Virus record (IMG/VR): IMGVR_UViG_3300009526_000051
Coordinates: 1 to 26,590 of that record
Reading direction: 5' to 3' (one strand)
Length of the DNA: 26,590 nt
Source of the DNA: a virus
Positions 4,648 through 26,590 of this stretch are shown in pieces. A program made the position numbers and the translations under genes. Position 1 is the stretch's first letter; each line of letters starts with the position of its first letter. The notes below the pieces were generated by a model. The model searched no databases, was not told the DNA's origin, and saw only the letters and a list, made by a program, of their open reading frames with translations.

Positions 4648-4965
4648 TTACCACTGGTCTTTAAAATCATTATACAACGAATATTTTGCAGTTAGTTCGT
4701 CACCTGCTTTAATGGGCTTTGTTGTCACTAGATATTTTACTGGCAGTTGATGCCAAAAGCCTGCAAGATTCTTACAGTTAGGATCTTGTGAATGATTGTA
4801 AAATGCACCTAAGGCAGTTCTAATTGCTCCATGCGAAAAATTTTTATTCATGATATGCACAATACCAAGTACCACATCTTGATCAAAATCTTTTGTAGCA
4901 AACAAACCCAAGCCTTGCACACTTGACTCTTTAATTGTTATACCGTCTGGTAATGGTTTATACAT
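4648..4965 (-). CDS. SET-domain protein, putative lysine methyltransferase (105 aa)
   Basis: SET-domain hallmarks in order: 'SVQGLGLFATKDF' (about residues 15-27, the N-terminal SET strand), 'ALGAFYNHSQDPNC' (about 51-64, corresponding to the NHS/NC S-adenosylmethionine-binding motif) and 'KAGDELTAKYS' (about 86-96, the GEEL-x-x-DY motif with its catalytic Tyr). The family transfers methyl groups from SAM to protein lysines. At about 105 aa it is a minimal SET domain with no pre- or post-SET region. It sits between DNA ligase and oxygenase genes in the same operon. Targets could be phage or host proteins; the sequence does not say. Confidence 0.75.
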   Translation of the reverse strand: MYKPLPDGITIKESSVQGLGLFATKDFDQDVVLGIVHIMNKNFSHGAIRTALGAFYNHSQDPNCKNLAGFWHQLPVKYLVTTKPIKAGDELTAKYSLYNDFKDQW

Positions 4966-13986: not shown

Positions 13987-14178
13987 TTAATTTATAAATG
14001 GATCGTCTGTTTTTATTCCTTTCAATGCTTTTACTCTAGTTTTTAAACTGTCTATTGTGGTGTAGATGTGTCCAGTATCACTTTCTTGAATTAAACTTTT
14101 GAAATATTTAATTTCGTCTTCTAAAATTTTAACTCTAATTAAATTACCAGGAAAGTCTTTAATTTGTTTTTTGGGCAT
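13987..14178 (-). CDS. small coiled-coil protein between heme oxygenase and bilin reductase (63 aa)
   Basis: Begins MPKKQIKDFPGNLIRVKILE and is mostly helical (DEIKYFKSLIQESD, SLKTRVKALKGIKTDD). The frame is open upstream to 14316, but that part lies inside the heme oxygenase gene, so ATG 14178 is chosen, leaving a 20-base overlap. It ends 3 bases before the bilin reductase start. Its place inside the two-gene bilin pathway hints at a helper role, but nothing in the sequence defines one. Confidence 0.55.
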   Translation of the reverse strand: MPKKQIKDFPGNLIRVKILEDEIKYFKSLIQESDTGHIYTTIDSLKTRVKALKGIKTDDPFIN

Positions 14179-14707
14179 TATGTAAATCTTTGAATAATTC
14201 TGTAGCAAATTCAAAACACAGTCTAGCCTCATCTGCCATACTGTCGTCTGTTTTGTTTCTGATTCTTTCTTTAATTTCTTTAACGTCTGCTCTTCCAAAC
14301 TCATACATTGTGCCACTGCCGGGTGCTTTTTTCTTAATCATTTGTCCACCACTTAAATCTCCCATGTGTCTCACATAGATGTGTGCCATTAATTTTTTAG
14401 GATCTTCTTTGATTGTGTGCATGTGTTGGATATATCGTTCTGTGCTTGGTGAAATTTCTGGCATATCTTCTTTCGTCCAAAGTTCTTGAAAGTCAGCCAA
14501 TATGCTTGGGGCTCTACGTATTTGTGGAAAGTCGTTGAGTAGTCCATGTGACATTGCACAGGCTTCTAACAAATTGTATATGGCATGTTGATTAAACAAG
14601 AACTCTGCATATAGTTCTTCGCTCATTTGTCCACTCATTAATACTTTGACAAATCCTTGTCGTTCTGCATCTTGGTGTACTTCTTTTGTTAACTCTTTCA
14701 GTCCCAT
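14159..14707 (-). CDS. ho1: heme oxygenase (182 aa)
   Basis: Opens heme to biliverdin, CO and iron. The proximal His is in LTKEVHQDAER (His11), and the distal-helix signature is HIYVRHMGDLSGGQMIKKK (about residues 108-126, with the GDLSGGQ motif). The length is slightly shorter than cyanobacterial HO1. It sits upstream of the bilin reductase and is translationally coupled to the 47-aa gene before it (TAATG). Together with the reductase it forms a complete heme-to-bilin route. The released iron could also matter in iron-poor ocean water. Confidence 0.92.
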   Translation of the reverse strand: MGLKELTKEVHQDAERQGFVKVLMSGQMSEELYAEFLFNQHAIYNLLEACAMSHGLLNDFPQIRRAPSILADFQELWTKEDMPEISPSTERYIQHMHTIKEDPKKLMAHIYVRHMGDLSGGQMIKKKAPGSGTMYEFGRADVKEIKERIRNKTDDSMADEARLCFEFATELFKDLHNAQKTN

Positions 14708-14850
14708 TAAAATCCTTCCGCAAACATTACTTTGGCATTTGGAAATCTGCTTTCAACAATTGATTTGGCTTCTGATGCTGTTCTGCCTTCTTCTGCTACT
14801 TTCATTGGTGCTTTGCTTTCCAGTGTTACCCAAAAATAATATTTGTTCAT
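14707..14850 (-). CDS. small hypothetical protein (47 aa)
   Basis: Starts MNKYYFWVTLESKAPMKVAE and ends SRFPNAKVMFAEGF. It has a beta-alpha-beta pattern typical of many short phage proteins. The ATG overlaps the clpS stop (ATGA), and its stop overlaps the heme oxygenase start (TAATG), so translation of clpS, this gene and heme oxygenase is probably coupled. No function assigned. Confidence 0.6.
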   Translation of the reverse strand: MNKYYFWVTLESKAPMKVAEEGRTASEAKSIVESRFPNAKVMFAEGF

Positions 14851-15152
14851 TCTTGTTCTATTTTTATTTGCAAAGGAAAACCTCGGTCTCTGCTTATATT
14901 AGTGGCTTCGGTTCCTTTTTGCTCTGCTAATTCATATGTATATAAACCTACTACTGCAGAACCTTCCTTGTGAATCTTGATTGTTATGTCTTTGGCTGTT
15001 TCTGGAGTGTGTTTGAAAACTGTAACCAATAGCTCTATAACAAAATCCATTGGAGTTACTTCATCGTTCAACATGATAACAGTGTAATCTTTTGGTACCT
15101 TTAAAATTTGCTTTATTTTCGAATCTACTTTTACTTCTAAATCAGTTGTCAT
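14847..15152 (-). CDS. clpS: ClpS adaptor (101 aa)
   Basis: Adaptor that delivers N-degron substrates to ClpAP. The core ClpS sequence is visible: YTVIMLNDEVTPMDFVIELL (about residues 23-42; the NDE/TPM motif binds the N-terminal residue), followed by VFKHTPETAKDITIKIHKEG and YTYELAEQKGTEA. Typical length. GAAGGA precedes the ATG. It follows hsp20 after a strong hairpin and precedes heme oxygenase. It may redirect ClpA and the phage ClpP toward chosen host proteins; that is inference. Confidence 0.92.
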   Translation of the reverse strand: MTTDLEVKVDSKIKQILKVPKDYTVIMLNDEVTPMDFVIELLVTVFKHTPETAKDITIKIHKEGSAVVGLYTYELAEQKGTEATNISRDRGFPLQIKIEQE

Positions 15153-15207: not shown

Positions 15208-15651
15208 TTACTTTACTTCGATTGATCTTGCTTTTTTACTTTCTGGAACAATTCTTTCCATAGATATTTTTAGCAAACCATCTTTAAGTTCTGCTCCTTT
15301 TACTTCCACATCGTCAGCAATAGTAAAGGCTTTAGAAAACCATCTCTTACTGATACCTCTGTGAAGCATACCGTCTACGTCTGCATCTTTGGCTTTTTCC
15401 TTAGATTTAACAGTCAACATACTGTCTTGGTAATCTACATCTATGTCGTCTTTTGAAAAACCTGCAAGTGCAAGTTCCACGTCATAAGTGTATTCACCAG
15501 TCTTCACTATGTTGTACGGTGGGAAGTTTGTAGCAGTCATGGTGTTGAAATTGTGATCATCAATCATTCTTTCGAAATGATCGAACACATTGTCAAATCC
15601 TACTGTTACAGGTCTTAATTGATTGAATATAGATAGTGTTTTGTTTGTCAT
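15208..15651 (-). CDS. hsp20: small heat-shock protein Hsp20/IbpA type (147 aa)
   Basis: ATP-independent holdase. The alpha-crystallin domain spans about residues 45-140: YNIVKTGEYTYDVELALAGF at its start, LTVKSKEK, then a C-terminal GAELKDGLLKISMERIVPES strand region and a short RSIEVK tail, which keeps an IxV anchor (I-E-V). Hsp20 is a near-core gene of marine T4-like phages. AAGGAGG precedes the ATG. It has a long leader with a hairpin and both a late-type and a sigma70-type promoter, suggesting expression over much of the cycle. Confidence 0.93.
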   Translation of the reverse strand: MTNKTLSIFNQLRPVTVGFDNVFDHFERMIDDHNFNTMTATNFPPYNIVKTGEYTYDVELALAGFSKDDIDVDYQDSMLTVKSKEKAKDADVDGMLHRGISKRWFSKAFTIADDVEVKGAELKDGLLKISMERIVPESKKARSIEVK

Positions 15652-15755: not shown

Positions 15756-15785
15756 ATTATATAACAACTCTATGGAAGAAATCAA
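15756..15785 (-). promoter_or_regulatory. sigma70-type promoter upstream of hsp20
   Basis: Minus strand: TTGATT (15780-15785), 18-base spacer, TATAAT (15756-15761). The -35 lies over the stop of the preceding gene. Confidence 0.6.
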
Positions 15786-16495
15786 GAGTTTATCCATGGA
15801 TTTTTGTTATTAATTTCACCAAAATCTTTCTTGTTGATTCCTTGTTTTACTCCAATCTTAAAATTTAAACCTTTAGTGTCTGCTGTTAAAGAATAATCCA
15901 ACCCATCATATTCTATTTCGTGAACAACATCCACACCGTTAATTGTGCTGTATCTTAACCATAAGTTTGCAAGATCAAAGTTATACAGTTTTGATTGAAT
16001 CTTTTCTTCTGTGTACCAAACACCTCTTTCGTTGCTGTCTCCGTAGAAATAGTGCTTGTCTACTAATTGAGCTGAGTCATAATTATAAGTGCTGGTGCTA
16101 ACTATTCGTACACCTTCTTTTTCTAATTGTTGTTTATCTAAGTCTAATCTTAAAACAGTTTCTTCCAAACGAAATTTTTTATCATATCTATCAATGTACA
16201 GTGTGTTGTTACGGTTTAACACAATACCTGACACATGAGCAATGTCGTCATACTCATACCACTCTCTGTTCAACTGTGCGTCTGCAGGAACTTTTTCTAA
16301 CATGTTGATATCTCGATACTCGGCAACATAACTTCCAAGTTCTGTATCTGTTTTCTTGTTCCAGTATTTGTATAATTGGGGAGTGACGAATCCCATCACA
16401 CTTTCGCAACCAACACCTTCGAGTCTAATTTCGTAATGTTTGGTTTCGTTTTTTATGTGTTCTAAAAAGTTGCGTTTTTCTTGAATTGTTGCCAT
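15782..16495 (-). CDS. oxygenase-associated protein of unknown function, copy 2 (237 aa)
   Basis: Paralogue of the 3775-4485 product. It shares E-S-V-MG-x-VT, a YW motif, V-P-A-D-A-Q-x-x-R followed by DDIAHVSG, DKHYFYG followed by VWYTEE, and a C-terminal DGLDY at matching positions. Soluble, with no signal or membrane segment. ATG 16495 (MATIQEKRNF) is preferred to an in-frame TTG at 16513; a promoter-like TTGACA-N17-TACATT ends 6 bases before the ATG. It lies immediately downstream of the second 2OG oxygenase, whereas copy 1 lies upstream of its oxygenase. Confidence 0.75.
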   Translation of the reverse strand: MATIQEKRNFLEHIKNETKHYEIRLEGVGCESVMGFVTPQLYKYWNKKTDTELGSYVAEYRDINMLEKVPADAQLNREWYEYDDIAHVSGIVLNRNNTLYIDRYDKKFRLEETVLRLDLDKQQLEKEGVRIVSTSTYNYDSAQLVDKHYFYGDSNERGVWYTEEKIQSKLYNFDLANLWLRYSTINGVDVVHEIEYDGLDYSLTADTKGLNFKIGVKQGINKKDFGEINNKNPWINS

Positions 16496-16501
16496 TGTAT
16501 C

Positions 16502-16530
16502 AATGTAACACAAATGTTCTATTCTGTCAA
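16502..16530 (-). promoter_or_regulatory. possible promoter giving a leaderless mRNA (16495 gene)
   Basis: Minus strand: TTGACA (16525-16530, inside the end of the oxygenase gene), 17-base spacer, TACATT (16502-16507), 6 bases to ATG 16495. Same geometry as the promoters at 13252 and 23568. Confidence 0.5.
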
Positions 16531-17163
16531 TGGTGGGTAGCCATTTAACTTTGCCAATTCATCATTGTTTTTGGACATGGCTATTGAAGTATTAAAGCTC
16601 ATTGATATTCTGACACTGTCTGATTGGTTGCCGTCCACAGAATGTTTAACCCAACTTGGAAAAATTAATACACCTCCACTGATTGGTTTGTATGTGGCTC
16701 TCACTGCACTGATGTGATTTCTTTTTGGCATCACTCTTGGTAAGAAAAATTGTGCATTGTCTTCTCTTTCAAAATGTATATTGCCCATGTTTTCCTTTGG
16801 TATATCGATGTAATACACACCACTCAGTATACTATCTCTATGATCGTGTGGATGATTGTAATCACCTTTGCCATTAATGTTCCACCAGTAATCACTTATC
16901 TGTAAATCCATTAGTCCTGCCATCTTGGTACATTCGTTAATAGAGTTTTGAATACTTTGTATAAACCTTTCCACAGTGATTGGTCTCTCATCCAGTATGT
17001 CGAACGATTTACTTTGCCAACCGCCATAGTTAGATGCTACTTTACCTTGCTCATCTTGTGCTTTTAACTTAATTACATATTCTTTTAATTCTGAATTATT
17101 AATCTGTTTTAATTCGTCATTCCATATCACCGTAGGAAACCATAAGTCTGCTTTGACTGTCAT
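16519..17163 (-). CDS. 2OG-Fe(II) oxygenase, TIGR02466-like, copy 2 (214 aa)
   Basis: Same family as the 3188-3775 product. N-terminal 'LWFPTVIW', then ISDYWWNINGKGDYNHPHDHRD (about residues 89-110; His106 or His108 with Asp110), SGVYYID, LIFPSWVKHSVDGN with His174, and RISMSFN with Arg185. The last two positions fall at the same residue numbers as in copy 1. These are the expected metal and 2OG ligands. It is coupled to the gene before it (TAATG) and followed after 23 bases by the copy-2 partner gene. Substrate unknown. Confidence 0.85.
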   Translation of the reverse strand: MTVKADLWFPTVIWNDELKQINNSELKEYVIKLKAQDEQGKVASNYGGWQSKSFDILDERPITVERFIQSIQNSINECTKMAGLMDLQISDYWWNINGKGDYNHPHDHRDSILSGVYYIDIPKENMGNIHFEREDNAQFFLPRVMPKRNHISAVRATYKPISGGVLIFPSWVKHSVDGNQSDSVRISMSFNTSIAMSKNNDELAKLNGYPPLTE

Positions 17164-17743: not shown

Positions 17744-19229
17744 GAAGTGCTTCTGCCTCTGCAAATGTGCCTTTAGTTGGTACAATACCAGTAATTGGTT
17801 TCCCGGTATTATCGTCCATGCCATCATTGTTTTCATCAACTTCTTCTATTGGCTTAGATTCTTGAACATCGTATTTTACTTCGTCTTCGTTGAACCCATC
17901 TACTTCTTTTGATACTTCTTTTTCTGCTTCTTCAATCATTTGATTCCATTGTTCCAATGGCATTGGTGGCTCTACTTCAGCCTTATATGAATATTCTTCT
18001 AATGCTTTTAGTTCTTCTTGTTCACGTTTTTTAAATTCTGCAAGTTTTTCAGCACTAGGAATTGTAGATACTGGTTTCTTTTCAGCAATATCGCTCAATT
18101 TGATTGTGGATACTTTCTTATTGGCTTTTAAAGGATTTGCTATGTGTACTTCTTTTTGTTTTTTCACAATTTTAGTCAAACTCTGTCCGCCTGACGGAGC
18201 CGGTGGAGTTGTGGGTGCTGGTGGAGTTGTGGGTGGCGTTTTAGGTGCTGGTGGTAATTCGCCATGCTTGTCAATGTATCTCCATCTAAATGTGTACTGC
18301 GAAGCAATCAACAATAATACTGCTAATGGATCAAACACAAATATAATTGTAATGATTACCCATCTCACTGCTTCTTCTAATAAATTTCTATCTGCTTCTT
18401 CCCCATACACAAATTCAGCAATATATCTGATAGGTCCTACTTCAGATTCCAGTTTCATTAACTGACTTTTTAATGGTTCTTGCTCTATGATTAACAGTTC
18501 TATTCTGCCTTGTGCATCAAATATATTTTTTTCTGATGTTTGTATGGAAACATCATTTTTATCTAAGGAGTTGTTGATTTGAGCTCTTAACTTGTTGATG
18601 TTTTCTTGAGCATCCGATACTTGTTGATTAATTCTGTCTCTTTCTGTTTGTTGACTTTTACGTACTTCCAGTCCACGTTTGATGTTGTCTCCTTTAAATA
18701 AACCTTTACCTTGATCAGTGTATGCTTTAACATCTGCATCTAATACTTCTAGACGTTTGTAAGCATCATCTATCTTCTTTTGTTCTATTTGTATGTCTTG
18801 ATTAAACCTGTCATTACTGCCCGTGCTTTGCCCTGTTAGACGCTCTAACACGTCCTTTTGACGGTCTATATAACTGTTCTCTGCTCTTACTTTGTTGTCT
18901 ATGATTTCAATTCTTTGTGTGACTGTGTCTGAGGATAAATTTTGGTCCACGTGTGCTTTGGATAAGAATCCAAATATACCCATGGAAGTGATCAGCATTA
19001 AAACTAATACTGCTATTGATAGATAGGTTCGTAACCACCAAGCCGCTTTGCTCCAATACTTATGAAGCCACACAGCCGTTACCAACTTACCTACTTCTAA
19101 GGCAGTACCCATTATAATGATTGGTACAGCCGCCGCGGCAAAAATTGCCACTAGCCCAGCCACTGAGTAATAGATTGCTACACCTGAAATGGTGATTGCT
19201 GTTAGAAATGTGATAAGTCCAAATAACAT
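17670..19229 (-). CDS. large coiled-coil membrane protein with Pro-rich region (519 aa, may be longer)
   Basis: Hydrophobic helices at about residues 4-24, 25-48, 66-92 and 293-313, with a long coiled coil (about 105-275) between the third and fourth. After the last helix comes a Pro/Thr-rich segment with repeated TPPAP units (about 325-350), then a Lys/Glu-rich tail. AAAGGA stands 7 bases before ATG 19229. Similar proteins occur in marine T4-like phages, but their role is not established; envelope remodelling or lysis control is possible. The zero-frame tail ends QQVKKEHQEE after a ten-A run, and the alternative frame extends further (see separate entry). Confidence 0.65.
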   Translation of the reverse strand: MLFGLITFLTAITISGVAIYYSVAGLVAIFAAAAVPIIIMGTALEVGKLVTAVWLHKYWSKAAWWLRTYLSIAVLVLMLITSMGIFGFLSKAHVDQNLSSDTVTQRIEIIDNKVRAENSYIDRQKDVLERLTGQSTGSNDRFNQDIQIEQKKIDDAYKRLEVLDADVKAYTDQGKGLFKGDNIKRGLEVRKSQQTERDRINQQVSDAQENINKLRAQINNSLDKNDVSIQTSEKNIFDAQGRIELLIIEQEPLKSQLMKLESEVGPIRYIAEFVYGEEADRNLLEEAVRWVIITIIFVFDPLAVLLLIASQYTFRWRYIDKHGELPPAPKTPPTTPPAPTTPPAPSGGQSLTKIVKKQKEVHIANPLKANKKVSTIKLSDIAEKKPVSTIPSAEKLAEFKKREQEELKALEEYSYKAEVEPPMPLEQWNQMIEEAEKEVSKEVDGFNEDEVKYDVQESKPIEEVDENNDGMDDNTGKPITGIVPTKGTFAEAEALQKKKSLSYIMRERNQQVKKEHQEE

Positions 19230-19263
19230 ACTGTTTCCTTTTGTATGCTATATTTACCTACTT

Positions 19264-19713
19264 TTACCTAATAAATTGCCAGCCGTGGTATGCAACATCC
19301 TTACAGGCAGTTTCCTTAAAGTCTCTTACTTTGTCTTTCTTTTTAATCTGTGTAAAAATAACCCTGCAATATCCACCACCATGCGGATAACTTGCAACCA
19401 CTTTTACAAAACCATGTGTATCAGCCTTCATAGTATGCCATGCAACCACTTTACCTTCTTCTAGGTTGTCCAAAGCAAAATACACAGCCTGAGCCTGCTT
19501 CTTTTGATCTTGTTTGGATAACTTACCCATATTGTTTCGTATAAAGTTATACCAAATTTCTACACTCGTACCTGCATGAGTATAATTATGACTCACACTA
19601 TTCTGACTGCTTAAACTTTTATTGGTAGTGGCAGTTGTTCCACAGGCAGTTAATAACAAACTACCTAATAGGATTAACCATTTCCCACGAGCCATCAAAC
19701 TTTTGACAAACAT
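19264..19713 (-). CDS. outer-membrane lipoprotein, 17-kDa surface-antigen-like (149 aa)
   Basis: A signal peptide ends in the lipobox LLLTACG (lipidated Cys about residue 24). The mature part has KQDQKKQAQAVYFALDN, then GKVVAWHT, then GGYCRVIFTQIKKKDKV and ETACKDVAYHGWQF. That order (helix, strand with W, YCR-x-x-T, TAC, W near the end) resembles the 17-kDa rickettsial surface-antigen domain common in alphaproteobacteria. An alternative start is ATG 19695. It overlaps the previous gene by 53 bases and is the last of three exported-protein genes from the promoter at 20622. Confidence 0.68.
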   Translation of the reverse strand: MFVKSLMARGKWLILLGSLLLTACGTTATTNKSLSSQNSVSHNYTHAGTSVEIWYNFIRNNMGKLSKQDQKKQAQAVYFALDNLEEGKVVAWHTMKADTHGFVKVVASYPHGGGYCRVIFTQIKKKDKVRDFKETACKDVAYHGWQFIR

Positions 19714-20011
19714 ATCCTTTTTTCCTTATCCATTGTTGATTGACATACATATCGAACCAATACTCTTTGCAATCTTTGGCTATACCTGAGTATGCCAAAA
19801 AGTCTTTTGCTCCATCATCACACACCAAAGTTTCAACTATCTGCTTGTCGATAATCTTTCCTTGTGTGTCTTTTGTGATAACAGTTTCTGTTTTAACATT
19901 GCAGTATTGATCTGACCACGGTCCTCCTGCTTGAGCAGACGAACCAACGACAAACAGTATCAAACCTAGTGCTAACATGATCAGAGCGATTATGTATAAT
20001 ATTGCTTTCAT
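19661..20011 (-). CDS. exported or membrane-anchored protein (116 aa)
   Basis: An N-terminal hydrophobic helix (about residues 4-24, ending SSAQAGG) is a signal peptide or anchor. The rest contains YCNVKTETVITKDTQGK, TLVCDDGAKDF and GYVCQKFDGSWEMVN, with five cysteines that could pair in the periplasm. It resembles the neighbouring 17-kDa-like domain in its 'C...DGSWEMVN' end. It starts one base after the stop of the 20600 gene. Confidence 0.6.
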   Translation of the reverse strand: MKAILYIIALIMLALGLILFVVGSSAQAGGPWSDQYCNVKTETVITKDTQGKIIDKQIVETLVCDDGAKDFLAYSGIAKDCKEYWFDMYVNQQWIRKKGYVCQKFDGSWEMVNPIR

Positions 20012-20012
20012 A

Positions 20013-20600
20013 TTATTTGTCAGATTGCTTTAATACTTTATCCGAGGTGTTGCTGATTTTTAACTTGCTAATTAACTTCTTGTTGTTTTTATCTTCAACA
20101 AGGTTAACTATGTTTTCAACATCTTTCTTGGATATCTTCATTAAAACAAATGATCTGTAATTGCTCTTCTCAGTGTTGTATATTGTTAATTTCTTTTCAA
20201 CAGAATATGTTCTTAACACAGTCTGTTTAATCATATTAACAATCACGTCTTGAGCTTCTACTGTGCCAATCATTGACTCAGAAGCACCTTTTTCAGAATA
20301 GTTGATAGATGTTTTATTGTTCATCTCACCATTTATTCTATCAGTGATCTTCGCTTTTGCTTTAAGAACTGCCTTCTTCTGAGACATTTCCATATCTGGA
20401 GATACTGCTACTGCTACTGCATAATAGAAACCATCTCTAAAGATAAATCCCTCTTTGCCAGTATCTGCGTGGTTAAGATACCAAGCCGGTACCTTCTTTG
20501 CTTTTATGTTTTCTGTTGGTAACTGTACCATTCTACCTGAACAAGCAGTTAGAACAAAACCTAATACAAGTACCATTATTATATTAATGTGCCTTTTCAT
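20013..20600 (-). CDS. LPP20-like lipoprotein (195 aa)
   Basis: ATG 20600 follows a strong AAAGGAGG with a 5-base gap, so it is chosen over an in-frame upstream ATG at 20654. It begins MKRHINIIMVLVLGFVLTAC, with the lipobox VLTACSG placing a lipidated Cys at residue 20. The mature part has VPAWYLNHAD, FYYAVAVAVSPD, and a helix KKAVLKAKAKITDRINGEMN, the pattern of the LPP20 family ('P-x-WY...YAvG.a...A...Ar..la'). Probably periplasmic, anchored in the outer membrane. First of three exported proteins, from its own promoter. Confidence 0.72.
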   Translation of the reverse strand: MKRHINIIMVLVLGFVLTACSGRMVQLPTENIKAKKVPAWYLNHADTGKEGFIFRDGFYYAVAVAVSPDMEMSQKKAVLKAKAKITDRINGEMNNKTSINYSEKGASESMIGTVEAQDVIVNMIKQTVLRTYSVEKKLTIYNTEKSNYRSFVLMKISKKDVENIVNLVEDKNNKKLISKLKISNTSDKVLKQSDK

Positions 20601-20621
20601 AAGCCTCCTTTGTAAGTTTAA

Positions 20622-20650
20622 ATTATATATGAAATTGCCAAAATAGTCAA
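20622..20650 (-). promoter_or_regulatory. sigma70-type promoter for the exported-protein cassette
   Basis: Minus strand: TTGACT (20645-20650), 17-base spacer, TATAAT (20622-20627), leader of about 15 bases containing AAAGGAGG. Confidence 0.8.
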
Positions 20651-20713
20651 GCATTACCTACCAAAAATAAATGGCGTGTTCATTGACTTTTTGCAATTGA
20701 TGTTACCAAAATA

Positions 20714-21235
20714 TTATGTGAGTACCACGTATTCGAAGTTTTGAGTGGTTTCATTCTTCTGAATTAATTTGGCACCGTTTCTTAAATGAAACTTCTCTGC
20801 CATTTCAGTGAGTGGCGATAGTGTCACCAACCTATTCAAATGATTCGAATGTTTAATCATTTTGTAAACTTCCTTCACAATCATTTTACCACCACCTTTT
20901 TTAAGACTCCATACAGTGTAAGCAATAGCAACAGATCCTTGTATTCCTGCTCTGTGTACTGACTGCATGGCGGCGTCTTTGCTTAACACATCCATTTCTT
21001 CAACAGTCTTTGGAACTTGGTTAGTGAATGCGAAACACATCACAGCCATAATATCTTCACCGTGTTTAAGTCCGTAAATTTTTCTACCGTATGAGGTTCT
21101 AAATTTTATATCCAGTTCAGGACGAACAGGATCTTTTGTACAATCTACTTCGTGCAATTCAACCAGCTCAGTTTTTTTAAGCCAATCAAAATCAAACCAT
21201 TTTTTAATCTTCGCTGTTGTGGTCGTCATCGTCAT
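20714..21235 (-). CDS. putative GNAT-like acyltransferase (173 aa)
   Basis: Mixed alpha/beta protein: 'GEDIMAVMCFAFTNQVP' (a central strand), then VAIAYTVWSLKKGGGKMIVK (a strand followed by a Gly-rich turn that may hold the CoA pyrophosphate), then LVTLSPLTEMAEKFHLRNGA and a final YVVLT strand. The order resembles the GNAT fold, though the classic RxxGxG/A motif is only approximated by KKGGGK. Substrate unknown. The start lies 32 bases inside the 39-aa gene upstream. Confidence 0.5.
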   Translation of the reverse strand: MTMTTTTAKIKKWFDFDWLKKTELVELHEVDCTKDPVRPELDIKFRTSYGRKIYGLKHGEDIMAVMCFAFTNQVPKTVEEMDVLSKDAAMQSVHRAGIQGSVAIAYTVWSLKKGGGKMIVKEVYKMIKHSNHLNRLVTLSPLTEMAEKFHLRNGAKLIQKNETTQNFEYVVLT

Positions 21236-21323
21236 ACCCTCTTACTTTAATTAACACAGTTAATACACCCACTGAGACTATCATACCTAAAAAGAACAAA
21301 CCTAATCCTGCTTCAACTTCCAT
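21204..21323 (-). CDS. single-pass small membrane protein (39 aa)
   Basis: MEVEAGLGLFFLGMIVSVGV and LTVLIK form one hydrophobic helix, followed by an acidic tail (YDDDDHNSED). AAAGGAG lies before ATG 21323, which also overlaps the stop of the upstream zinc-ribbon gene (TAATG). These two signals support a real gene. Function unknown. Confidence 0.6.
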   Translation of the reverse strand: MEVEAGLGLFFLGMIVSVGVLTVLIKVRGYDDDDHNSED

Positions 21324-21502
21324 TATGCTCCTTTATACTTTTCATTACCTTGATGCCATCCTATGTCTTCTATTTCTTCACTACAACATGTAGGACAACA
21401 ATAAAATTCTTCTAGTGATTCGTCTTTGTCTAGTTCTTGTGCAACACCTCTCCATTTACAAGTCCAACAAATCCAATTCCATAATTCTTCTTGGTCTGAC
21501 AT
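21323..21502 (-). CDS. small zinc-ribbon-like protein (59 aa)
   Basis: Cys12-x2-Cys15 (CWTC) and Cys36-x2-Cys39 (within YCCPTCC) make a likely zinc ribbon, with an acidic linker between. It starts MSDQEELWNWICWTCKW. Both ends overlap neighbours by TAATG. Such short ribbons may bind nucleic acids or proteins; no specific role can be given. Confidence 0.6.
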   Translation of the reverse strand: MSDQEELWNWICWTCKWRGVAQELDKDESLEEFYCCPTCCSEEIEDIGWHQGNEKYKGA

Positions 21503-21885
21503 TATTTGTTGCCTTTCATTAAGGATATCTCTGTCGCCGCCTTACGTCCTGTTATATCATCGTCATCTGCAAACACTGGCACTTGATTACTCTTGTGCAT
21601 GGTTGCAATACCAATCAATCTACGTTCTCCTGTGTAACGCATTTCTTCTCTTTTACTGCCAGCACCTTTTTCCATCACAGGTACTTTGTCACCACAAGGT
21701 ACTCCTTGTCTGTCTTCTATAGGTTCGATCACCAATGTTTCTGATTTCTTTTTTCTAAACTTAATCTTGTCCAACCCTCTCTCTTTTAACCATTCCTGAT
21801 GTTCCTCACGAGCTTTTCGCAGTGATGCTGTGTCGGGTAATCTGTGGTTGATTTTTTTAGGTTGTTTCAAAATAATAAATCCCAT
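21502..21885 (-). CDS. conserved hypothetical protein, leaderless (127 aa)
   Basis: Starts MGFIILKQPKKINHRLPDTA. A basic helical region (SLRKAREEHQEWLKERG) is followed by VIEPIEDRQGVPCGDKVPVM and a Gly/Arg-rich part. Soluble. ATG 21885 lies 6 bases after a TACAAT hexamer, implying a leaderless mRNA. First gene of a unit that continues through the zinc-ribbon, small membrane and GNAT-like genes. No family recognised. Confidence 0.6.
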   Translation of the reverse strand: MGFIILKQPKKINHRLPDTASLRKAREEHQEWLKERGLDKIKFRKKKSETLVIEPIEDRQGVPCGDKVPVMEKGAGSKREEMRYTGERRLIGIATMHKSNQVPVFADDDDITGRKAATEISLMKGNK

Positions 21886-21891
21886 TCTAAT

Positions 21892-21920
21892 ATTGTATTG
21901 TGTTATTTACTGTTTGTCAA
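21892..21920 (-). promoter_or_regulatory. sigma70-type promoter giving a leaderless mRNA (21885 gene)
   Basis: Minus strand: TTGACA (21915-21920, inside the end of the upstream gene), 17-base spacer, TACAAT (21892-21897), 6 bases to ATG 21885. Confidence 0.7.
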
Positions 21921-22637
21921 GTCTTCAATTTTTTGAAGTATGATCTTAGGATATTCTTCGTTAGTACTCCAAGCACTCAATCCAAACACCATTTTGGTAA
22001 TATTGGGCTCGTATTTGTTTTGATCTCTTTCTGCTCTAAACTCTTTGTAAGCAGGATGTCTGTTTATGATTGCGATTACATCTTTTACACTCTGACATTT
22101 GGTTTCATATTTCTTAACACCAAATTTAGCATTAGGAATAGCCGCAGGTTTCATGTGTGGCACTTTATCTAGACTCCAAGTCCTTACACCAAACATTGCA
22201 TTGCCTTCTGTGGCAAATCTACTTCTACCATAGTCTGATTCTATAATTGCCATTGCCACCAATATGTCTCTGGGTATTCTTTGATCCATTGGTAGTGTCC
22301 AGTTGATGTAGTCTATGCAGGTGTTCATTGCTTTAATATAAGTTTTAGGTCCATCGAATTTAAACTCGGGTTCATGTAGTCCAAAACTCTTTGCCATCTC
22401 TACCATTCTTTTGTCTTCTTGTTTACGAATCTTTTTCTCTACAATGCTGTTTGGATTGAATGTTCCGTAGGTGTATGCTAATAAAAGAACACCAGCCAAT
22501 GCTAATACTTTGTAACAGAACACTTTTACTTTGCGTATAGTTCTGTTAGACGGTGTTAATTGTTTAACAACGTCATTAATAAACAACTTACTATTGTCTT
22601 TTAGTTTAATAAACTTTTTTTTGATCCTAATAAACAT
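21903..22637 (-). CDS. membrane-anchored Bax-like glucosaminidase (244 aa)
   Basis: Predicted peptidoglycan hydrolase. A basic N-terminus and one hydrophobic helix (about residues 43-58) look like a signal anchor. The catalytic domain has LVAMAIIESDYGRSRFATEG (Glu133 as probable acid), AMFGVRTW, an AKFGVKKYETKCQSVKD segment, NRHPAYKEFR and GLSAWSTNEEYPKII, matching the Bax/FlgJ-type glucosaminidase family. It may be an endolysin with a signal-anchor-release domain. An in-frame GTG at 22652 lies at the edge of the promoter, so ATG 22637 is chosen. Confidence 0.78.
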   Translation of the reverse strand: MFIRIKKKFIKLKDNSKLFINDVVKQLTPSNRTIRKVKVFCYKVLALAGVLLLAYTYGTFNPNSIVEKKIRKQEDKRMVEMAKSFGLHEPEFKFDGPKTYIKAMNTCIDYINWTLPMDQRIPRDILVAMAIIESDYGRSRFATEGNAMFGVRTWSLDKVPHMKPAAIPNAKFGVKKYETKCQSVKDVIAIINRHPAYKEFRAERDQNKYEPNITKMVFGLSAWSTNEEYPKIILQKIEDLTNSK

Positions 22638-22643
22638 AACATT

Positions 22644-22671
22644 ATTATACACTATTTAGATTCTAAATCAA
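22644..22671 (-). promoter_or_regulatory. sigma70-type promoter giving a leaderless mRNA (22637 gene)
   Basis: Minus strand: TTGATT (22666-22671), 16-base spacer, TATAAT (22644-22649), 6 bases to ATG 22637. Confidence 0.65.
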
Positions 22672-22685
22672 GAGTTAATAAGTCG

Positions 22686-22952
22686 CTATTTCTTTGAGTT
22701 TTTGAGATGTTGTTTGCAGATTTCGTACCAAAATTGCCCACCTTCTCTCAACAATTCATTGTCAGTACGCAGACGTTCCATTCTCTTGTGCAGTAGGTTC
22801 CATTGATACTTTGAAATTACTGCGTTACGATCTTGGAATTTGTCTATTCGTATGAGTACATCGTCTATGATGGGGCAGGTGATATCAGGCACTTTGGGTG
22901 CTTTCTTTTTCCACTTTTGCCAAGCAGTTGTTTTCTTTTTAAGTGTAGGCAT
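22686..22952 (-). CDS. hypothetical basic protein (88 aa)
   Basis: Starts MPTLKKKTTAWQKWKKKAPK, then a helical segment YQWNLLHKRMERLRTDNELL that may form a coiled coil. No membrane segment. An in-frame TTG at 22976 is less likely than ATG 22952. Upstream, TCTAAATA (22961-22968) resembles a late-type promoter, and a TATAAT lies about 25 bases before the ATG. Follows the tmRNA gene. Confidence 0.5.
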   Translation of the reverse strand: MPTLKKKTTAWQKWKKKAPKVPDITCPIIDDVLIRIDKFQDRNAVISKYQWNLLHKRMERLRTDNELLREGGQFWYEICKQHLKNSKK

Positions 22953-23011
22953 AACAGTAATATTTAGATACTGCAATTATAAACTTAAATGAATACTTAA
23001 TGAAAGTGAAA

Positions 23012-23033
23012 TGTGGGAGCCGAAACTCCCACA
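23012..23033 (-). terminator. hairpin at the 3' end of the tmRNA gene
   Basis: The 8-bp stem TGTGGGAG/CTCCCACA with a six-base loop is followed by TTTCACTTTC on the minus strand. The U-tract is broken, but position just after the tmRNA coding piece fits an end-of-transcript hairpin. Confidence 0.6.
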
Positions 23034-23330
23034 CTTGATCTGTTCTGTTGCCCGGTAGATCTACCGCCAAGTGGCCGGTATTAAGCGGCAACCAATTCCG
23101 CGTCAGCAAATATGCTAACTGGAACTGTCACTTCTGGTTTAAATGCGTTTGCATTTGTACGATCCTTTACAGAGATCAGACTGATAAACTCCATGTGCTT
23201 TTATGCTCCGGTCGAAACCAAGTACACCCCCTCATAATAAACCAGATTATTATAAATGAGTGTTGGTGGAGGTGGAGGGAGTCGAACCCTCGTCCCAAAA
23301 GTGTATTGCACACACTTCAACGTCTACAGT
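23034..23330 (-). ncRNA. ssrA: tmRNA, circularly permuted two-piece form
   Basis: Rescues stalled ribosomes and tags their products for proteolysis. Read on the minus strand, the acceptor piece comes first, ending in T-arm GAGGG-TTCGACT-CCCTC and CACCTCC-A-CCA (3' end at 23264). A 32-base intervening hairpin (23232-23263) follows, then the coding piece starting GGGGGTG at 23231 with the conserved GGTTTCGAC. The acceptor stem pairs GGGGGTG with CACCTCC and has a G-U pair at position 3, the alanine identity element. The tag frame ends SIFADAELVAA with stop at 23081-23083. The AA end suits ClpXP/ClpAP. The outer ends are approximate. Permuted tmRNA is known from alphaproteobacteria and some cyanobacteria. 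Confidence 0.93.
23232..23263 (-). other. intervening segment of the permuted tmRNA precursor
   Basis: An AU-rich segment between the CCA of the acceptor piece and the 5' end of the coding piece, able to fold through CTCAT/ATGAG and ATAATAA/TTATTAT arms. Host processing enzymes would remove it. Confidence 0.8.
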
Positions 23331-23357
23331 GTATTTAAACAGATTATTGGGTAAATG

Positions 23358-23561
23358 TCAAGACTTAATTTTAATTGGAGACCATCTACCATCTTTGCTT
23401 CTTAACTTGTCAGAATGCTTTACTTCTATGGTGAATTTTTTGGAGTTTTTGAATTCCTTGCCATATGCGAAAGTGAACTCATGTCCGTGTTCAGTTGCAG
23501 ACTGCCAATAGTGTTGGAAGTCGTTAATCACAATTTTATTCTTTTGTATTTTAACTGTCAT
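23358..23561 (-). CDS. small hypothetical protein, leaderless (67 aa)
   Basis: Starts MTVKIQKNKIVINDFQHYWQ. Contains HGHEFTFAYGKEFKNSKKFT and ends RWSPIKIKS; mostly predicted strands, basic. ATG 23561 is 6 bases after a TACATT hexamer, so the mRNA should be leaderless. The stop lies about 28 bases before the tmRNA acceptor region on the same strand, so both may share a transcript. No family recognised. Confidence 0.55.
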   Translation of the reverse strand: MTVKIQKNKIVINDFQHYWQSATEHGHEFTFAYGKEFKNSKKFTIEVKHSDKLRSKDGRWSPIKIKS

Positions 23562-23567
23562 ATGCTT

Positions 23568-23596
23568 AATGTAGCATACACACACTAAAATGTCAA
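23568..23596 (-). promoter_or_regulatory. sigma70-type promoter giving a leaderless mRNA (23561 gene)
   Basis: Minus strand: TTGACA (23591-23596), 17-base spacer, TACATT (23568-23573), 6 bases to ATG 23561. It may also drive the tmRNA downstream. Confidence 0.7.
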
Positions 23597-23606
23597 GCAG
23601 TGATTA

Positions 23607-23825
23607 TTATTGATTGAAGTTTTTGATTACTTTGATATCAGTAGCAACTTGTCTATCTCTAAATTCTTGTAATTGGTATTCTACAATATCACCGTCCATA
23701 ACTTCTTTAAGGTTAGCGGCTTTAAGAGCAGAGATATGTAAGAAAACGTCCTTGCCTTCTTCGTCTGGTGTAATGAATCCAAATCCTTTTGCTGAATTGA
23801 ACCACTTTATTTTACCTGTTGCCAT
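23607..23825 (-). CDS. csp: cold-shock protein, CspA family (72 aa)
   Basis: Single-domain RNA chaperone. GKIKWFNSAKGFGFIT contains RNP1 (KGFGFI) and DVFLHISAL contains RNP2 (VFLHIS), followed by the barrel strands GDIVEYQLQE and ATDIKVI. Typical CspA length. It probably melts mRNA structure to help translation. A late-type AATAAATA lies 30 bases before the ATG. No good Shine-Dalgarno sequence is visible in the AT-rich leader. Confidence 0.95.
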   Translation of the reverse strand: MATGKIKWFNSAKGFGFITPDEEGKDVFLHISALKAANLKEVMDGDIVEYQLQEFRDRQVATDIKVIKNFNQ

Positions 23826-23854
23826 ATTATTTTGTTTCTTGTTTTCTTATGTTG

Positions 23855-23861
23855 TATTTAT
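23855..23861 (-). promoter_or_regulatory. late-type promoter (AATAAATA) for the cold-shock gene
   Basis: The minus strand has AATAAATAC, the NATAAATA core, about 30 bases before ATG 23825. Confidence 0.45.
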
Positions 23862-23887
23862 TATTTTTTTGGAAATTTGTGTGTTGC

Positions 23888-23911
23888 GTTGCGGATTTTT
23901 ACACCCGCAAC
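23888..23911 (-). other. hairpin between the 24098 gene and csp
   Basis: The 7-bp GC-rich arms GTTGCGG/CCGCAAC with a ten-base loop, 10 bases after the stop of the upstream gene. No U-tract follows on the minus strand. It may protect the 3' end of the upstream mRNA or act as a weak terminator. Confidence 0.5.
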
Positions 23912-23921
23912 ATCAATAAGA

Positions 23922-24098
23922 TTACAATGAGTTTTTCTTCTCTTGTATTTCTTTTCTTCTTGTCTTAGTCGCTTTACCTAAAGTACCAAGAGCCTTTCTT
24001 GCTCTAGCCGCCGCCGCTTTAACACCCTTTGTTTCGAATGCTTCAGATTCAGCAATGTACGTTTCGTATGCTTCTTTTATTTCTTCATGAGTCGCCAT
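23922..24098 (-). CDS. small Ala/Lys/Arg-rich DNA-binding-like protein (58 aa)
   Basis: Starts MATHEEIKEAYETYIAESEA; then GVKAAAARARKALGTL and ATKTRRKEIQEKK form a basic, alanine-rich helix region resembling histone H1-like or nucleoid peptides. AAAGGAG precedes ATG 24098. It overlaps the end of the nucleotidase gene by 14 bases. Short proteins with this 'KGVKAAAARARKAL' core recur in marine T4-like phages. Probably binds DNA or RNA; unproven. Confidence 0.7.
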   Translation of the reverse strand: MATHEEIKEAYETYIAESEAFETKGVKAAAARARKALGTLGKATKTRRKEIQEKKNSL

Positions 24099-24675
24099 GA
24101 TTTTTCTCCTTTATAACGTTATAAATTTCAGCCCAACTTTTTACTCGTTGAACCGAATCCTTATCCTCATTATACATTGTATTGTGAGGAAGGTCAAGTA
24201 GCAATGCTACCAAACCCATATCATAACCTAACTGTGCATTAGCAGGTTTATCTTCTATCCAAAACGTTCCTTCCGGTATTTTAGATAGAGCTTCGTGTTT
24301 GTCTGCTCCTGTGTCTAAACATTCAATATGTTCGAACACATCACCAAACACTTGCTTAAGATTCTCTTCTCTCAACAGATTGGCTTTCTTATCCAATGTT
24401 TGACTGGTTATCACATAAAACTTATATCCTAGTTCTGCTATTTTTTTAACATTTTCAACAGCACCTTCCATAGGTTTTAATGACTTCATCCATGCACTTT
24501 CATTGAATATCTTTATAAGCACTTCGCATTGACCTTTGTTCATGTGATAGTTCATATTCACTTCATAATGATCATTGGCATGTTTAGGAAAGCCTTGAAA
24601 TTCCATCCATTCGTCGAATGATTGCTCCCAATTGAGTAGCACTCCATCACAATCTATTGCTATAATTTTATTCAT
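24085..24675 (-). CDS. HAD-family 5'(3')-deoxyribonucleotidase-like phosphatase (196 aa)
   Basis: HAD hydrolase. Motif I is DCDGVLLNW (Asp8 nucleophile, Asp10), motif II is YVITSQT (Thr/Ser about residue 90), a Lys follows in the TLDKKANLL helix, and motif IV is FWIEDKPANAQ (about 138-148). The cap is short. This matches the NT5C-like 5'(3')-deoxyribonucleotidases, which dephosphorylate dNMPs, and fits a DNA-precursor cluster with nrdB and glutaredoxin. Its ATG overlaps the stop of the Sm-like gene (TAATG). Confidence 0.78.
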   Translation of the reverse strand: MNKIIAIDCDGVLLNWEQSFDEWMEFQGFPKHANDHYEVNMNYHMNKGQCEVLIKIFNESAWMKSLKPMEGAVENVKKIAELGYKFYVITSQTLDKKANLLREENLKQVFGDVFEHIECLDTGADKHEALSKIPEGTFWIEDKPANAQLGYDMGLVALLLDLPHNTMYNEDKDSVQRVKSWAEIYNVIKEKNHGDS

Positions 24676-24962
24676 TATTTAGGTAACGTCAATCCTGTTG
24701 TACCTTCTCTGTACTGACGTGCCATACCATCTTCTGTTTCTGTGAAACACACAATATTATTTTTGTATATTTCTACATCAGCATTTTGAGGCACAGTGAA
24801 CACAAACGGTCCAAGACCTATTCCTTTGTTAGGAATATTAACCACTGCTCTTGGTTTTGATATTTTAATTGAATCTTGTGTAATCTCAATCAATTTGGCT
24901 AACACTTCCTCGCCACTCATCAGTTTAATTGTGATAATATCTCCTTGTTGTAAACTAGGCAT
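24675..24962 (-). CDS. Sm-like small barrel protein (95 aa)
   Basis: MPSLQQGDIITIKLMSGEEV, then LAKLIEITQDSIKISKPRAV and the end strands NNIVCFTETED suggest an Sm/LSm fold ('G-x-x-V-x-x-x-L-x-[SN]G-x-E' then 'D-S-I'). ATG 24962 follows AAGGAGG with a 5-base gap and is preferred to the in-frame ATG at 24983. If the fold is right, it may bind RNA. Overlaps glutaredoxin by 8 bases. Confidence 0.58.
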   Translation of the reverse strand: MPSLQQGDIITIKLMSGEEVLAKLIEITQDSIKISKPRAVVNIPNKGIGLGPFVFTVPQNADVEIYKNNIVCFTETEDGMARQYREGTTGLTLPK

Positions 24963-25212
24963 CGTCACCTCCTTGTTGATCAATCAGTGTTTTTAATTCT
25001 TGAAATCCACCAACATGTTTTTCATCAACAAATATTTGAGGAACTGTTCTTGCTCCTGGAACTGCTTCTTGTAACTGTTGCACTGTCCACGTTCCGTGTG
25101 CTATGTTTCTTTCCTCAAACTCTATATTTTTTGATTTTAATAGATTTTTTGCTTGTTCACAGTATGAACAACCTACGTTGCTCCATACAATCGCTTTAGT
25201 TATCTTTGACAT
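24955..25212 (-). CDS. grx: glutaredoxin (85 aa)
   Basis: Thiol-disulphide carrier that keeps ribonucleotide reductase reduced. Active site CSYC (residues 15-18) in WSNVGCSYCEQAKNLL, the cis-Pro motif TVPQIFVDE (about 56-64) and GG in VGGFQEL (about 67-73). Length typical of Grx. It lies in the same block as nrdB. It overlaps both neighbours on the same strand. Confidence 0.93.
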   Translation of the reverse strand: MSKITKAIVWSNVGCSYCEQAKNLLKSKNIEFEERNIAHGTWTVQQLQEAVPGARTVPQIFVDEKHVGGFQELKTLIDQQGGDDA

Positions 25213-25609
25213 TTGGTATCCTTATTGCTCCTATACCTTCTTTGTGAAGGTCTGTTATTTCTTTATCCGATGCTGTACCGTATATATGGTCATCACGTTC
25301 TCCTGCCATTGCTTTCCGAGCCTCTTTGGCAAAATCATCTCCAACATCTACACAGTTCTTTTCTACCCATGTCTTAAGATGTTGTAGAGTTGATCGACTG
25401 TTGTAAAATGCTGTGTTACTTTTTTTACTTTTGATCTTTTTTGATTTCAAATTTACATTTGGAGCCATTACTGCTCTTCGTACACCTGTGTTATCACATA
25501 TTGGACAAGCAATCAGTTTTTTAGTTTTTTGATCCAGATACGATTTCTCTGATGCAAACCATCCTTCGAATTTATGATCTCTAGAACAGAGTAAATTATA
25601 TTTGGGCAT
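25196..25609 (-). CDS. DUF1178 family protein (137 aa)
   Basis: Matches DUF1178: N-terminal YNLLCSRDHKFEGWFASEKS, then LIACPIC (zinc-binding-like CxxC, about residues 34-37) and RRAVMAPNV. After a Lys/Ser-rich linker comes VGDDFAKEARKAMAGERDD, IYGTASDKEITDLHKEGI and IRIPNVKDN. The family is common in alphaproteobacteria and has no known activity. Phage copies are unusual in my knowledge. A promoter-like TTGACT-N17-TACACT ends 5 bases before ATG 25609. Confidence 0.85.
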   Translation of the reverse strand: MPKYNLLCSRDHKFEGWFASEKSYLDQKTKKLIACPICDNTGVRRAVMAPNVNLKSKKIKSKKSNTAFYNSRSTLQHLKTWVEKNCVDVGDDFAKEARKAMAGERDDHIYGTASDKEITDLHKEGIGAIRIPNVKDN

Positions 25610-25614
25610 ACCTA

Positions 25615-25643
25615 AGTGTAACTTCTTTTGAGGATAAAGTCAA
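25615..25643 (-). promoter_or_regulatory. possible promoter giving a leaderless mRNA (DUF1178 gene)
   Basis: Minus strand: TTGACT (25638-25643), 17-base spacer, TACACT (25615-25620), 5 bases to ATG 25609. Confidence 0.5.
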
Positions 25644-25646
25644 TGT

Positions 25647-25823
25647 TTATAGATGATGTTCTGGTGGTTTACAGTCGACGGGTTGATTGTCTTTGTCCAT
25701 GTACAAACTCAACAACCAAATTATTACTCCCATACCTATCAACACCCAGATGAATCTTTCTTCTGGAGAAGTTAACAAATATGTCAGAACTTCCATACCA
25801 TTCATTGTGTTGAAGTCTACCAT
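25647..25823 (-). CDS. single-pass small membrane protein (58 aa)
   Basis: Starts MVDFNTMNGMEVLTYLLTSP, with a hydrophobic helix FIWVLIGMGVIIWLLSLYM (about residues 24-42) and a polar end (CKPPEHHL). ATG 25823 overlaps the nrdB stop (TAATG). The frame is open further upstream, but that part is inside nrdB. No family recognised. Confidence 0.6.
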   Translation of the reverse strand: MVDFNTMNGMEVLTYLLTSPEERFIWVLIGMGVIIWLLSLYMDKDNQPVDCKPPEHHL

Positions 25824-26590
25824 TATAATAAAAATTTCTTGAATTGACCTTTTTGTACGTCCTGTTTTATACCACCCACGATATAACTTTCTACTTCCGT
25901 CTCTTGAGGAGCCACCTGCATACCTTTTGAACTTAACCAATGCTGTGTCCAAGGTAGTGGATTTTGAGATGCTGATACATCGTAAATAGCATCGTACCCC
26001 AATGCTCTCAATCTTTTGTTAGCAATCCATTCAACATATTGACCTAGTAATTTTTCATTAAGACCTATAATTGATCCATCTTTGAACAAATGTTTTGCCC
26101 ATGCTTTTTCTTCTTCCACACAGTCTTTGAACATTTGTATCACAGTCTTCTCTGTGCCTTTCATTGCTTTGGTCATTTCAGGATCATCTCCTTTTTGCCA
26201 TGCTTTAATAACATTGGTAGACAAGTTTAAATGTGTTGCTTCGTCTCTAGCAATCAATGAAAGTATCTTTGCTGATCCTTCCATCAGTTTAAGCTCGCCG
26301 AATGCGAATGTACAAGCAAATGATATATAAAATCTTAATCCTTCTAACAAGTTCACAGTGTTCATTGCATAATATAATTGTCGCTTTAAATCAAGTGTGT
26401 CCACTTTTTTGCCCACTTGATAGTCTAATGCCATCTTGCCAAACTTGTCGTACTCTTTTGTTACTGATTCTGCTCTCTTTAATATTTCTTTATCATCCAA
26501 TATGGTGTCAAACACTTCTGCAGGATCTGAATAAATGTTCTTCATAATGTGTGTGTATGATCTTGAGTGTATTGTTTCAAAGAAATCCCA
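25823..26590 (-). CDS. nrdB: class I ribonucleotide reductase small subunit, partial (5' end outside window)
   Basis: Makes the radical for dNTP synthesis. The visible frame starts at the right edge with WDFFETIHSRSYTHI, which holds the iron ligands Glu and His and the radical Tyr of E. coli NrdB Glu115, His118 and Tyr122. Later LLEGLRFYISFACTFAF (Glu204 equivalent) and LIARDEATHLNLS (Glu238, His241 equivalents) complete the metal site. The C-terminus KKFLL-like end follows. So this is a radical-bearing class Ia-type subunit. Phage dNTP supply fits with glutaredoxin and nucleotidase downstream. Confidence 0.95.
   Translation of the reverse strand, partial: WDFFETIHSRSYTHIMKNIYSDPAEVFDTILDDKEILKRAESVTKEYDKFGKMALDYQVGKKVDTLDLKRQLYYAMNTVNLLEGLRFYISFACTFAFGELKLMEGSAKILSLIARDEATHLNLSTNVIKAWQKGDDPEMTKAMKGTEKTVIQMFKDCVEEEKAWAKHLFKDGSIIGLNEKLLGQYVEWIANKRLRALGYDAIYDVSASQNPLPWTQHWLSSKGMQVAPQETEVESYIVGGIKQDVQKGQFKKFLL

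Follow-up and report, generated by a model that had tools for sequence, protein, structure and literature searches.

The window, the whole stretch of DNA analysed here (26,590 bases, an IMG/VR virus record), carries on its minus strand a complete circularly permuted tmRNA gene with CCA, the G3-U70 pair and a helix between the two pieces. The permuted tmRNA is real and probably functional, and comparison of its sequence with those of its relatives makes it likely that this is a working phage-encoded two-piece tmRNA, with an elbow and a tag remodelled by the phage lineage. The kind as such is already published; what deserves further attention is its long hairpin tag and exchanged elbow.

The Rfam model tmRNA_permuted (RF04321) matched 23327-23081 (-) over the full model length with 82.9 bits (cut-off 47, E 9.5e-15), and ARAGORN called a permuted tmRNA at 22990-23359, so that the complete, phage-encoded permuted gene proposed in the initial annotation was borne out. 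The acceptor piece precedes the coding piece, as had been read (CCA at the end of 23327-23264, 5' end of the coding piece at 23231), and the acceptor stem, GGGGGUG/CACCUCC, holds the G3-U70 pair that had been noticed in it, which is also found in 26/26 relatives of the same tag family (family A). Searching with alpha_tmRNA (RF01849), a check that had been proposed at the same time, gave a match at 23365-23033 (-) with 58.8 bits, above the cut-off of 50. It was not the top match in its clan for the window: beta_tmRNA (RF01850; 23375-23007 (-), 70.4 bits, and 67.4 bits in L190) outranked it, though itself below the beta cut-off of 84. Alpha_tmRNA scores were 99.3 and 92 bits in loci with the alpha elbow (G007, G022) and dropped to 70.5 and 58.8 bits with the canonical elbow (G012, the window), beta_tmRNA then being ranked first; hence the window's beta label. 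The permuted form had been taken to indicate an alphaproteobacterial or picocyanobacterial source; the alpha type is upheld by score, but permuted forms also occur in Betaproteobacteria (PMC9004378), and since cyano_tmRNA was not among the Rfam matches listed for the window (three lower-scoring clan matches lay outside these) a picocyanobacterial source is not indicated. A picocyanobacterial origin of the tmRNA was considered and set aside, as no support for it was seen among the same listed matches.

The phage is probably marine, judging from the kin of its ribonucleotide reductase small subunit at the right edge of the window, which shares ~60% identity with its counterparts in T4-like cyanophages and pelagiphage HTVC008M (best 25 of 4486), and SAR11 is a plausible host from the tmRNA type. 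A near-identical isolate phage was not found by megablast of 18000-26590, and all 154 isolate ClpP records were <60% identical to the window protein, the top-ranked at 35.6% (best 40 of 154). A cold-shock protein and a glucosaminidase are encoded in addition to the genes of Table 1. Encoded on the minus strand are a small SET-domain protein (4648-4965, PF00856 1.3e-10), a lysine-methyltransferase-type domain unexpected in a phage, and, at 3188-4485 and 15782-17163, two 2OG-Fe(II) oxygenases (PF13759), each beside one hypothetical protein; the two hypothetical proteins are 29% identical (E 5e-30), and the oxygenase and hypothetical pair looks like a duplicated two-gene unit. A promoter arrangement similar to that upstream of the RNA was found with the same loose pattern of our own in 26/26 family A, 6/6 family D, 7/13 family B and 1/4 family C-type contexts; the site of the window was absent from a stricter scan, which gave 2 sites elsewhere vs 2.5 in shuffles.

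Table 1. Positions of the tmRNA parts and of selected neighbouring genes in the window.
Feature	Position	Strand	Basis or remark
Promoter-like site TTGACA-17-TTAAAT	23333..23361	-	just upstream of the RNA; loose pattern
Acceptor piece: upper helix strand, T-arm, acceptor 3' strand, encoded CCA	23264..23327	-	RF04321 alignment, pair counts
T-arm	stem 23291-23287/23279-23275, loop UUCGACU 23286-23280	-	
32-nt spacer, presumed removed in maturation	23232..23263	-	between CCA and 5' acceptor strand
5' acceptor strand GGGGGUG and D-loop segment UACUUGGUUUCGAC	23211..23231	-	canonical elbow
Coding-piece strand pairing with acceptor piece (CCGGAG, GCACAU, GUUUAU)	23184..23211	-	helices 1-3
Pseudoknot PK1 upstream of resume codon	23161..23183	-	helices 6-7; two pairs changed on both sides
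Tag reading frame ANAFKPEVTVPVSIFADAELVAA and stop	23081..23152	-	frame read; 10 alleles, pN/pS 0.21
Stem-loop within tag frame	23093..23127	-	fold z, helix 8
3' part of coding piece: helix GUUGCC/GGCAAC and pseudoknot GAUCU/AGAUC	23037..23092	-	helices 9-12
Terminator-like hairpin just downstream	23009..23036	-	1 found vs 0.4 expected; fold z -6.08
ClpP homologue, 186 aa	11998..12558	-	PF00574 1.6e-27
Heme oxygenase homologue, adjoining ClpS and Hsp20	14159..14707	-	PF01126 4.5e-26
ClpS homologue	14847..15152	-	PF02617 5.2e-28
Hsp20 small heat-shock protein	15208..15651	-	PF00011 1.1e-17

Structure matches (171) were reduced to 94 distinct sequences, 26 of them in family A, and the 26 distinct sequences were aligned and scored against a named structure of 70 pairs (1820 pair cells); the family A set used for elbow states differs from the aligned set in that L391 (truncated) is only in the former and L356 only in the latter. 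Standard pairs filled 98.2% of the 1820 cells vs 33-42% with the partners slid, a control biased towards the structure, which had been built on the window sequence; more weight lies with the compensatory pairs. Ten pairs were changed on both sides (two in the inter-piece helix, two in the T-stem, two in PK1, one in the tag hairpin and three in the 3' pseudoknot), the covariation score was 0.183 vs 0.108 in shuffles, and neither this score nor the observed value for cells with double changes was reached in any of 500 shuffles. The count of both-side-changed pairs is unexceptional, 97/500 shuffles reaching 10, and further pair types exceeded no shuffle (observed value reached in 500/500). Inter-piece helices 1-3 were paired in 100%, 89.7% and 99.4% of cells, and two pairs of the inter-piece helix were changed on both sides in 9/26 sequences; the pairing between the pieces that the initial annotation had expected is thus present, with compensatory changes. 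Three of the five pairs of the 3' pseudoknot were changed on both sides in 11/26, and the tag hairpin was paired in 96.4% of cells with one pair so changed. Individual pairs were broken in 9/26 and 7/26 sequences in helix 2 and in 6/26 and 7/26 in the tag hairpin. Acceptor stems of family B occur in three compensated versions (GGGGGCG, GGGGUGG, GGGGUAG), with G3-U70 in 14/14 rows of the alignment.

The tag frame is open for 23 codons from GCA 23152-23150 and ends in ELVAA, the length and start that had been estimated before. It had further been suggested that the tag may differ from that of the host, and it does differ from the SAR11 tags seen, which have 9 residues in 30/30 loci and in the ARAGORN-called Pelagibacteraceae-titled loci among L206-L285 (other tags in that called set reach 15 residues), less than half the length of the window tag. 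Tags of 22-29 residues, mostly with a stem-loop inside the frame, are found in several phage lineages. By tag, some of the phage tmRNAs fall into family A (ANAFKPEVTVPVSIFADAELVAA in the window), family B (ANDNALSNVTFVDFSAPVTAVNEDFALAA), family C (ANGNVTFVNFGAKLPTNEEFALAA, one locus) and family D (ANKKALGFADLTVGMSEMRLAA and similar); many other phage tags have 9-15 residues, and further long ones exist (e.g. L009, L032, L059, L089, L096). Two contigs of 332 kb (G120/L022) and 235 kb (G116/L013) from IMG/VR have a permuted tmRNA with the short tag ANSDSFRLVA.

No stop occurs in the 23 codons across the 10 family A alleles. Variable sites fell at third positions in 7/11 (A), 14/28 (B) and 9/16 (D) cases (P 0.039, 0.050 and 0.050 under one third), and pN/pS was 0.21, 0.31 and 0.20, respectively, values that may be biased low because sets A and D were sorted by tag motif and the family B scan presupposed the peptide; the longer family D allele L035 did not enter the pN/pS calculation, and the family B alignment holds 14 of 15 rows, truncated row L429 being left out. 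The minimum free energy of the window tag frame had a z of -2.65 (6/200 shuffles as low), and hairpin z values of -1.86, -2.10 and -1.56 were obtained for L186, L067 and L025; no tag hairpin was predicted in L447 of family D (z 0.30). Two pairs of the family B hairpin were changed on both sides, and in L191 and L411 (2/14 rows) most of its pairs were broken and another hairpin folded instead. From the third-position bias with pN/pS, and from the hairpin fold, the insert seems to be constrained both as peptide and as RNA. In the NVTFV(D/N)F stretch 6/7 third positions vary vs 1/14 others, a comparison picked post hoc and not a test. Such apparent conservation of the insert as peptide and hairpin in families A, B and D would also suit a tag with a role beyond plain degradation, for example slowed resumption or a handle for a phage factor; as the tag ends ELVAA, FALAA and RLAA resemble bacterial ones (AVAA, FALAA, RLAA) and L447 lacks the predicted hairpin, such a role is considered rather unlikely.

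SmpB was detected in none of 50 phage records, the window included and many of them fragmentary, with controls detected in 10/14 genomes, and host SmpB is therefore presumed. ClpS was present in 21 of the same 50 records, including the window and all 13 of the ClpP-selected records covered, a group that has ClpP by construction. Of 45 other tmRNA-bearing phage contigs (>30 kb, hand-picked from tmRNA loci), 20 had a ClpP homologue, at a distance from the tmRNA of 0.5-2.0 kb in G112-114, G118-119, G126, G127, G132 and G133, of 7-9 kb in G115, G117 and G131, and of 16-147 kb in the remainder (some of the contigs are related); the linkage test included far-apart cases such as G120 (147 kb), G140 (65 kb) and G141 (32 kb), and in the window the two genes lie ~10.5 kb apart. 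Under naive uniform placement this closeness had a p of 0.0002 (15 contigs), or 0.02 with contigs judged related collapsed (10), and the association is suggestive only. ClpP matches were weak in G112-114 (E 2e-5 to 7e-5), yet the L003 protein gave PF00574 1.3e-15. The window ClpP aligns with bacterial ClpP structure over residues 17-185; PHROGs match it also to head-maturation proteases, and some phage ClpP matches may, by their PHROG names, be such proteases. In L021 the gene order is tmRNA, GroES-like, ORF, cell-wall hydrolase, ClpP, in L047 it is ClpP, ORF, tmRNA, GroES-like, and in L049 and L092 ClpP lies downstream of the tmRNA after at least two ORFs; in all four the tmRNA is within ~2 kb of ClpP, in L021 and L047 also near the GroES-like gene, possibly a protein quality control neighbourhood. 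ClpS steers ClpAP away from SsrA-tagged substrates and so lends no support to tag proteolysis. The initial annotation had taken the nearby ClpP and ClpS genes to make the tmRNA more than a relic; this argument is not supported, given the contrary role of ClpS and a ClpP linkage of only p 0.02 after collapsing. That the phage runs a remodelled trans-translation of its own, with the tRNA-like cassette swapped to suit host SmpB and a phage-specific, hairpin-encoded tag handled by a protease with phage ClpP, is regarded as unlikely.

The elbow of the window clade is canonical, TTCGACT with GGTTTCGAC, on an alpha-type body; the alphaproteobacterial elbow, GGC(A/G)GTA with GGATCGAC (the SAR11 state), is not present in the window. 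In family A, TTCGACT or TTCAACT with GGTTTCGAC was found in 10 sequences and GGCAGTA with GGTTCGAC in 16, the T-loop and D segment being coupled in 26/26; the D-loop segment reads UACUUGGUUUCGAC in the window vs AUAUAGGUUCGAC in sister phages. L030 and L336 are 98.4% identical, and L189 and L190 98.0%, outside the T-arm, spacer and D segment, vs 50% in the T-arm and D segment for both pairs. Both elbow states thus stand on nearly identical bodies, and the elbow changed as a unit, to judge from these alignments probably more than once; family D also has both states. An exchange through recombination is what we infer, and because T-arm, acceptor and D-loop are contiguous in a permuted gene a single recombination tract could swap the elbow. 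Pelagibacterales loci had GGCGGTA with GGATCGAC in 27/30 (3 not parsed), and bacterial loci selected by GGCAGTA had the D segment GGATCGAC in 68 cases, GGCTCGAC in 7 and GGTTCGAC in 3 (41/119 not parsed). GGCAGTA with GGTTTCGAC was met in 0/78 parsed bacterial loci (119 examined) and in 2/73 parsed phage loci (116 examined), the latter being exceptions to the coupling; L204 combines TTCGACT with GGATCGAT, so the coupling is not general. Two of the pattern scans by which further phage tmRNAs were gathered fixed the T-loop and D parts alike and are uninformative on coupling.

SmpB binds tmRNA at the elbow, and the elbow is what differs between sister phages, as might be expected of a decoy RNA that would tie up and block SmpB or the host's tmRNA pathway. 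Such a role has been proposed for the RNA of mycobacteriophage DS6A, and a DS6A-like molecule consisting of the tRNA domain only strongly inhibits tmRNA (PMC4131195, PMC11915505). A decoy is distinctly unlikely here since, unlike in DS6A, the tag frame, stop codon, PK1 and 3' pseudoknot are conserved and the pN/pS of the tag is about 0.2.

The tag of the working molecule is most likely the 23-residue ANAFKPEVTVPVSIFADAELVAA rather than the 8-residue ADAELVAA that ARAGORN gives for the window and for a number of relatives sharing its frame. The shorter call would leave the upstream 15 codons as a structured spacer, which is very unlikely: in the alignment to the permuted model, its resume site falls on AAAUGCAAAC, the context of the 23-codon start, ARAGORN itself calls a 23-residue tag in L030, L189 and L336, and the 10 alleles have no stop in the 23 codons.

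ClpP relatives were collected from IMG/VR (80 loci kept of 118 found, 50 of the 80 examined), and RF04321 was found in 21/50 of the examined contigs, which may be fragments, comprising 18/22 with ClpP at least 81% identical and 3/28 of the rest. The gene may be dispensable, and fragments could explain some of the 4/22 absences. Such absences where ClpP is closest, in contigs that include short fragments, would fit a host gene passively picked up, or a relic, with no function for the phage. This is highly improbable, since the RNA is intact and shows compensatory changes across the 26 distinct family A sequences, and families B and D also have it, with constrained tags. The tmRNA of the window thus does not look like a relic on sequence grounds; the earlier statement that it is more than one holds through compensatory change and tag-frame conservation across relatives, and is not supported in its ClpP/ClpS argument.

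A two-piece tmRNA was described in Methylophilales phage Melnitz, where the authors placed it with Alphaproteobacteria and behind an early promoter; the same study found permuted tmRNA in 17/47 related contigs and classed 53/133 distinct phage tmRNAs as two-piece, 50 of the 53 being marine or aquatic, and it suggested that they maintain hijacked machinery or selectively tag proteins of the host (PMC9004378). The initial annotation had called phage tmRNAs rare; 402/18,146 phage genomes carry one, and marine-phage examples of the two-piece form were already published in 2022 (PMC9004378). In the text of that paper the terms Clp, ClpP and T-loop do not occur and the passages on tags are general. 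The glutamine riboswitch reported in it for Melnitz and Mosig has no counterpart in the window, where Rfam gave no riboswitch family at E up to 0.1; Melnitz was compared by its publication alone. Pelagibacter phage Mosig EXVC030M (MT647606.1), a marine myophage, has a tmRNA annotated as SsrA that is permuted by ARAGORN like that of the window, with the 9-residue tag GEDNFALAA and T-loop TGCAACT, whereas the window has 23 residues and TTCGACT. The SAR11 two-piece tmRNA (RF01849) shares with the window the permuted order, an AAATGC-type resume context and the 3' GGCAACAGAA segment, and differs in having GGCGGTA with GGATCGAC and a 9-residue tag, vs TTCGACT with GGTTTCGAC and a 23-residue tag with hairpin. 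Phage contigs L003-L024 have the canonical elbow and permuted order of the window but different tags (ANDAFYGEDRLAA and similar). Elbow exchange, hairpin tags and a ClpP link for phage tmRNA were not found in the literature covered (titles and abstract openings, with incomplete coverage). The phage ssrA of mycobacteriophages (Bxz1, Wildcat) and Bacillus phage G is one-piece. It is phage-borne like that of the window, in different phages, which were compared by description. An earlier list of phage ssrA genes comprises mycobacteriophages (Bxz1, Wildcat, others), Bacillus phage G and a DS6A fragment, which is little more than a tRNA-like domain (PMC4131195), and the tmRNA database holds 79 phage sequences, with 10 as the commonest tag length (PMC11915505).

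From the gene anatomy, the conserved structure and the apparent tag-frame constraint, which are observed, we infer steps from transcription to proteolysis that would run as follows. Host RNA polymerase would transcribe the tmRNA from the sigma-70-like promoter, and tRNA-processing enzymes would excise the spacer and leave the two pieces paired. Host AlaRS would then charge the molecule, and host SmpB and EF-Tu would deliver it to ribosomes stalled on truncated mRNAs in infection, where translation would resume at GCA 23152 and append ANAFKPEVTVPVSIFADAELVAA, the ELVAA end marking the tagged protein for ClpXP-type proteolysis. In this working tmRNA the phage lineage would have remodelled two modules of an alphaproteobacterial-type molecule, the elbow (T-loop and D-loop together) and the tag, the latter being lengthened by roughly a dozen residues or more through a stem-loop inserted within it, while resume context and C-terminal degron are kept.

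The two-piece phage tmRNA, a known oddity, becomes open to a testable comparison through phage sequences that are almost the same except, for the most part, in the elbow; the part played by the elbow in SmpB use could be learnt from such natural pairs. The tags, set apart from those of SAR11 by a conserved insert, could show if phages steer protein decay in infection.
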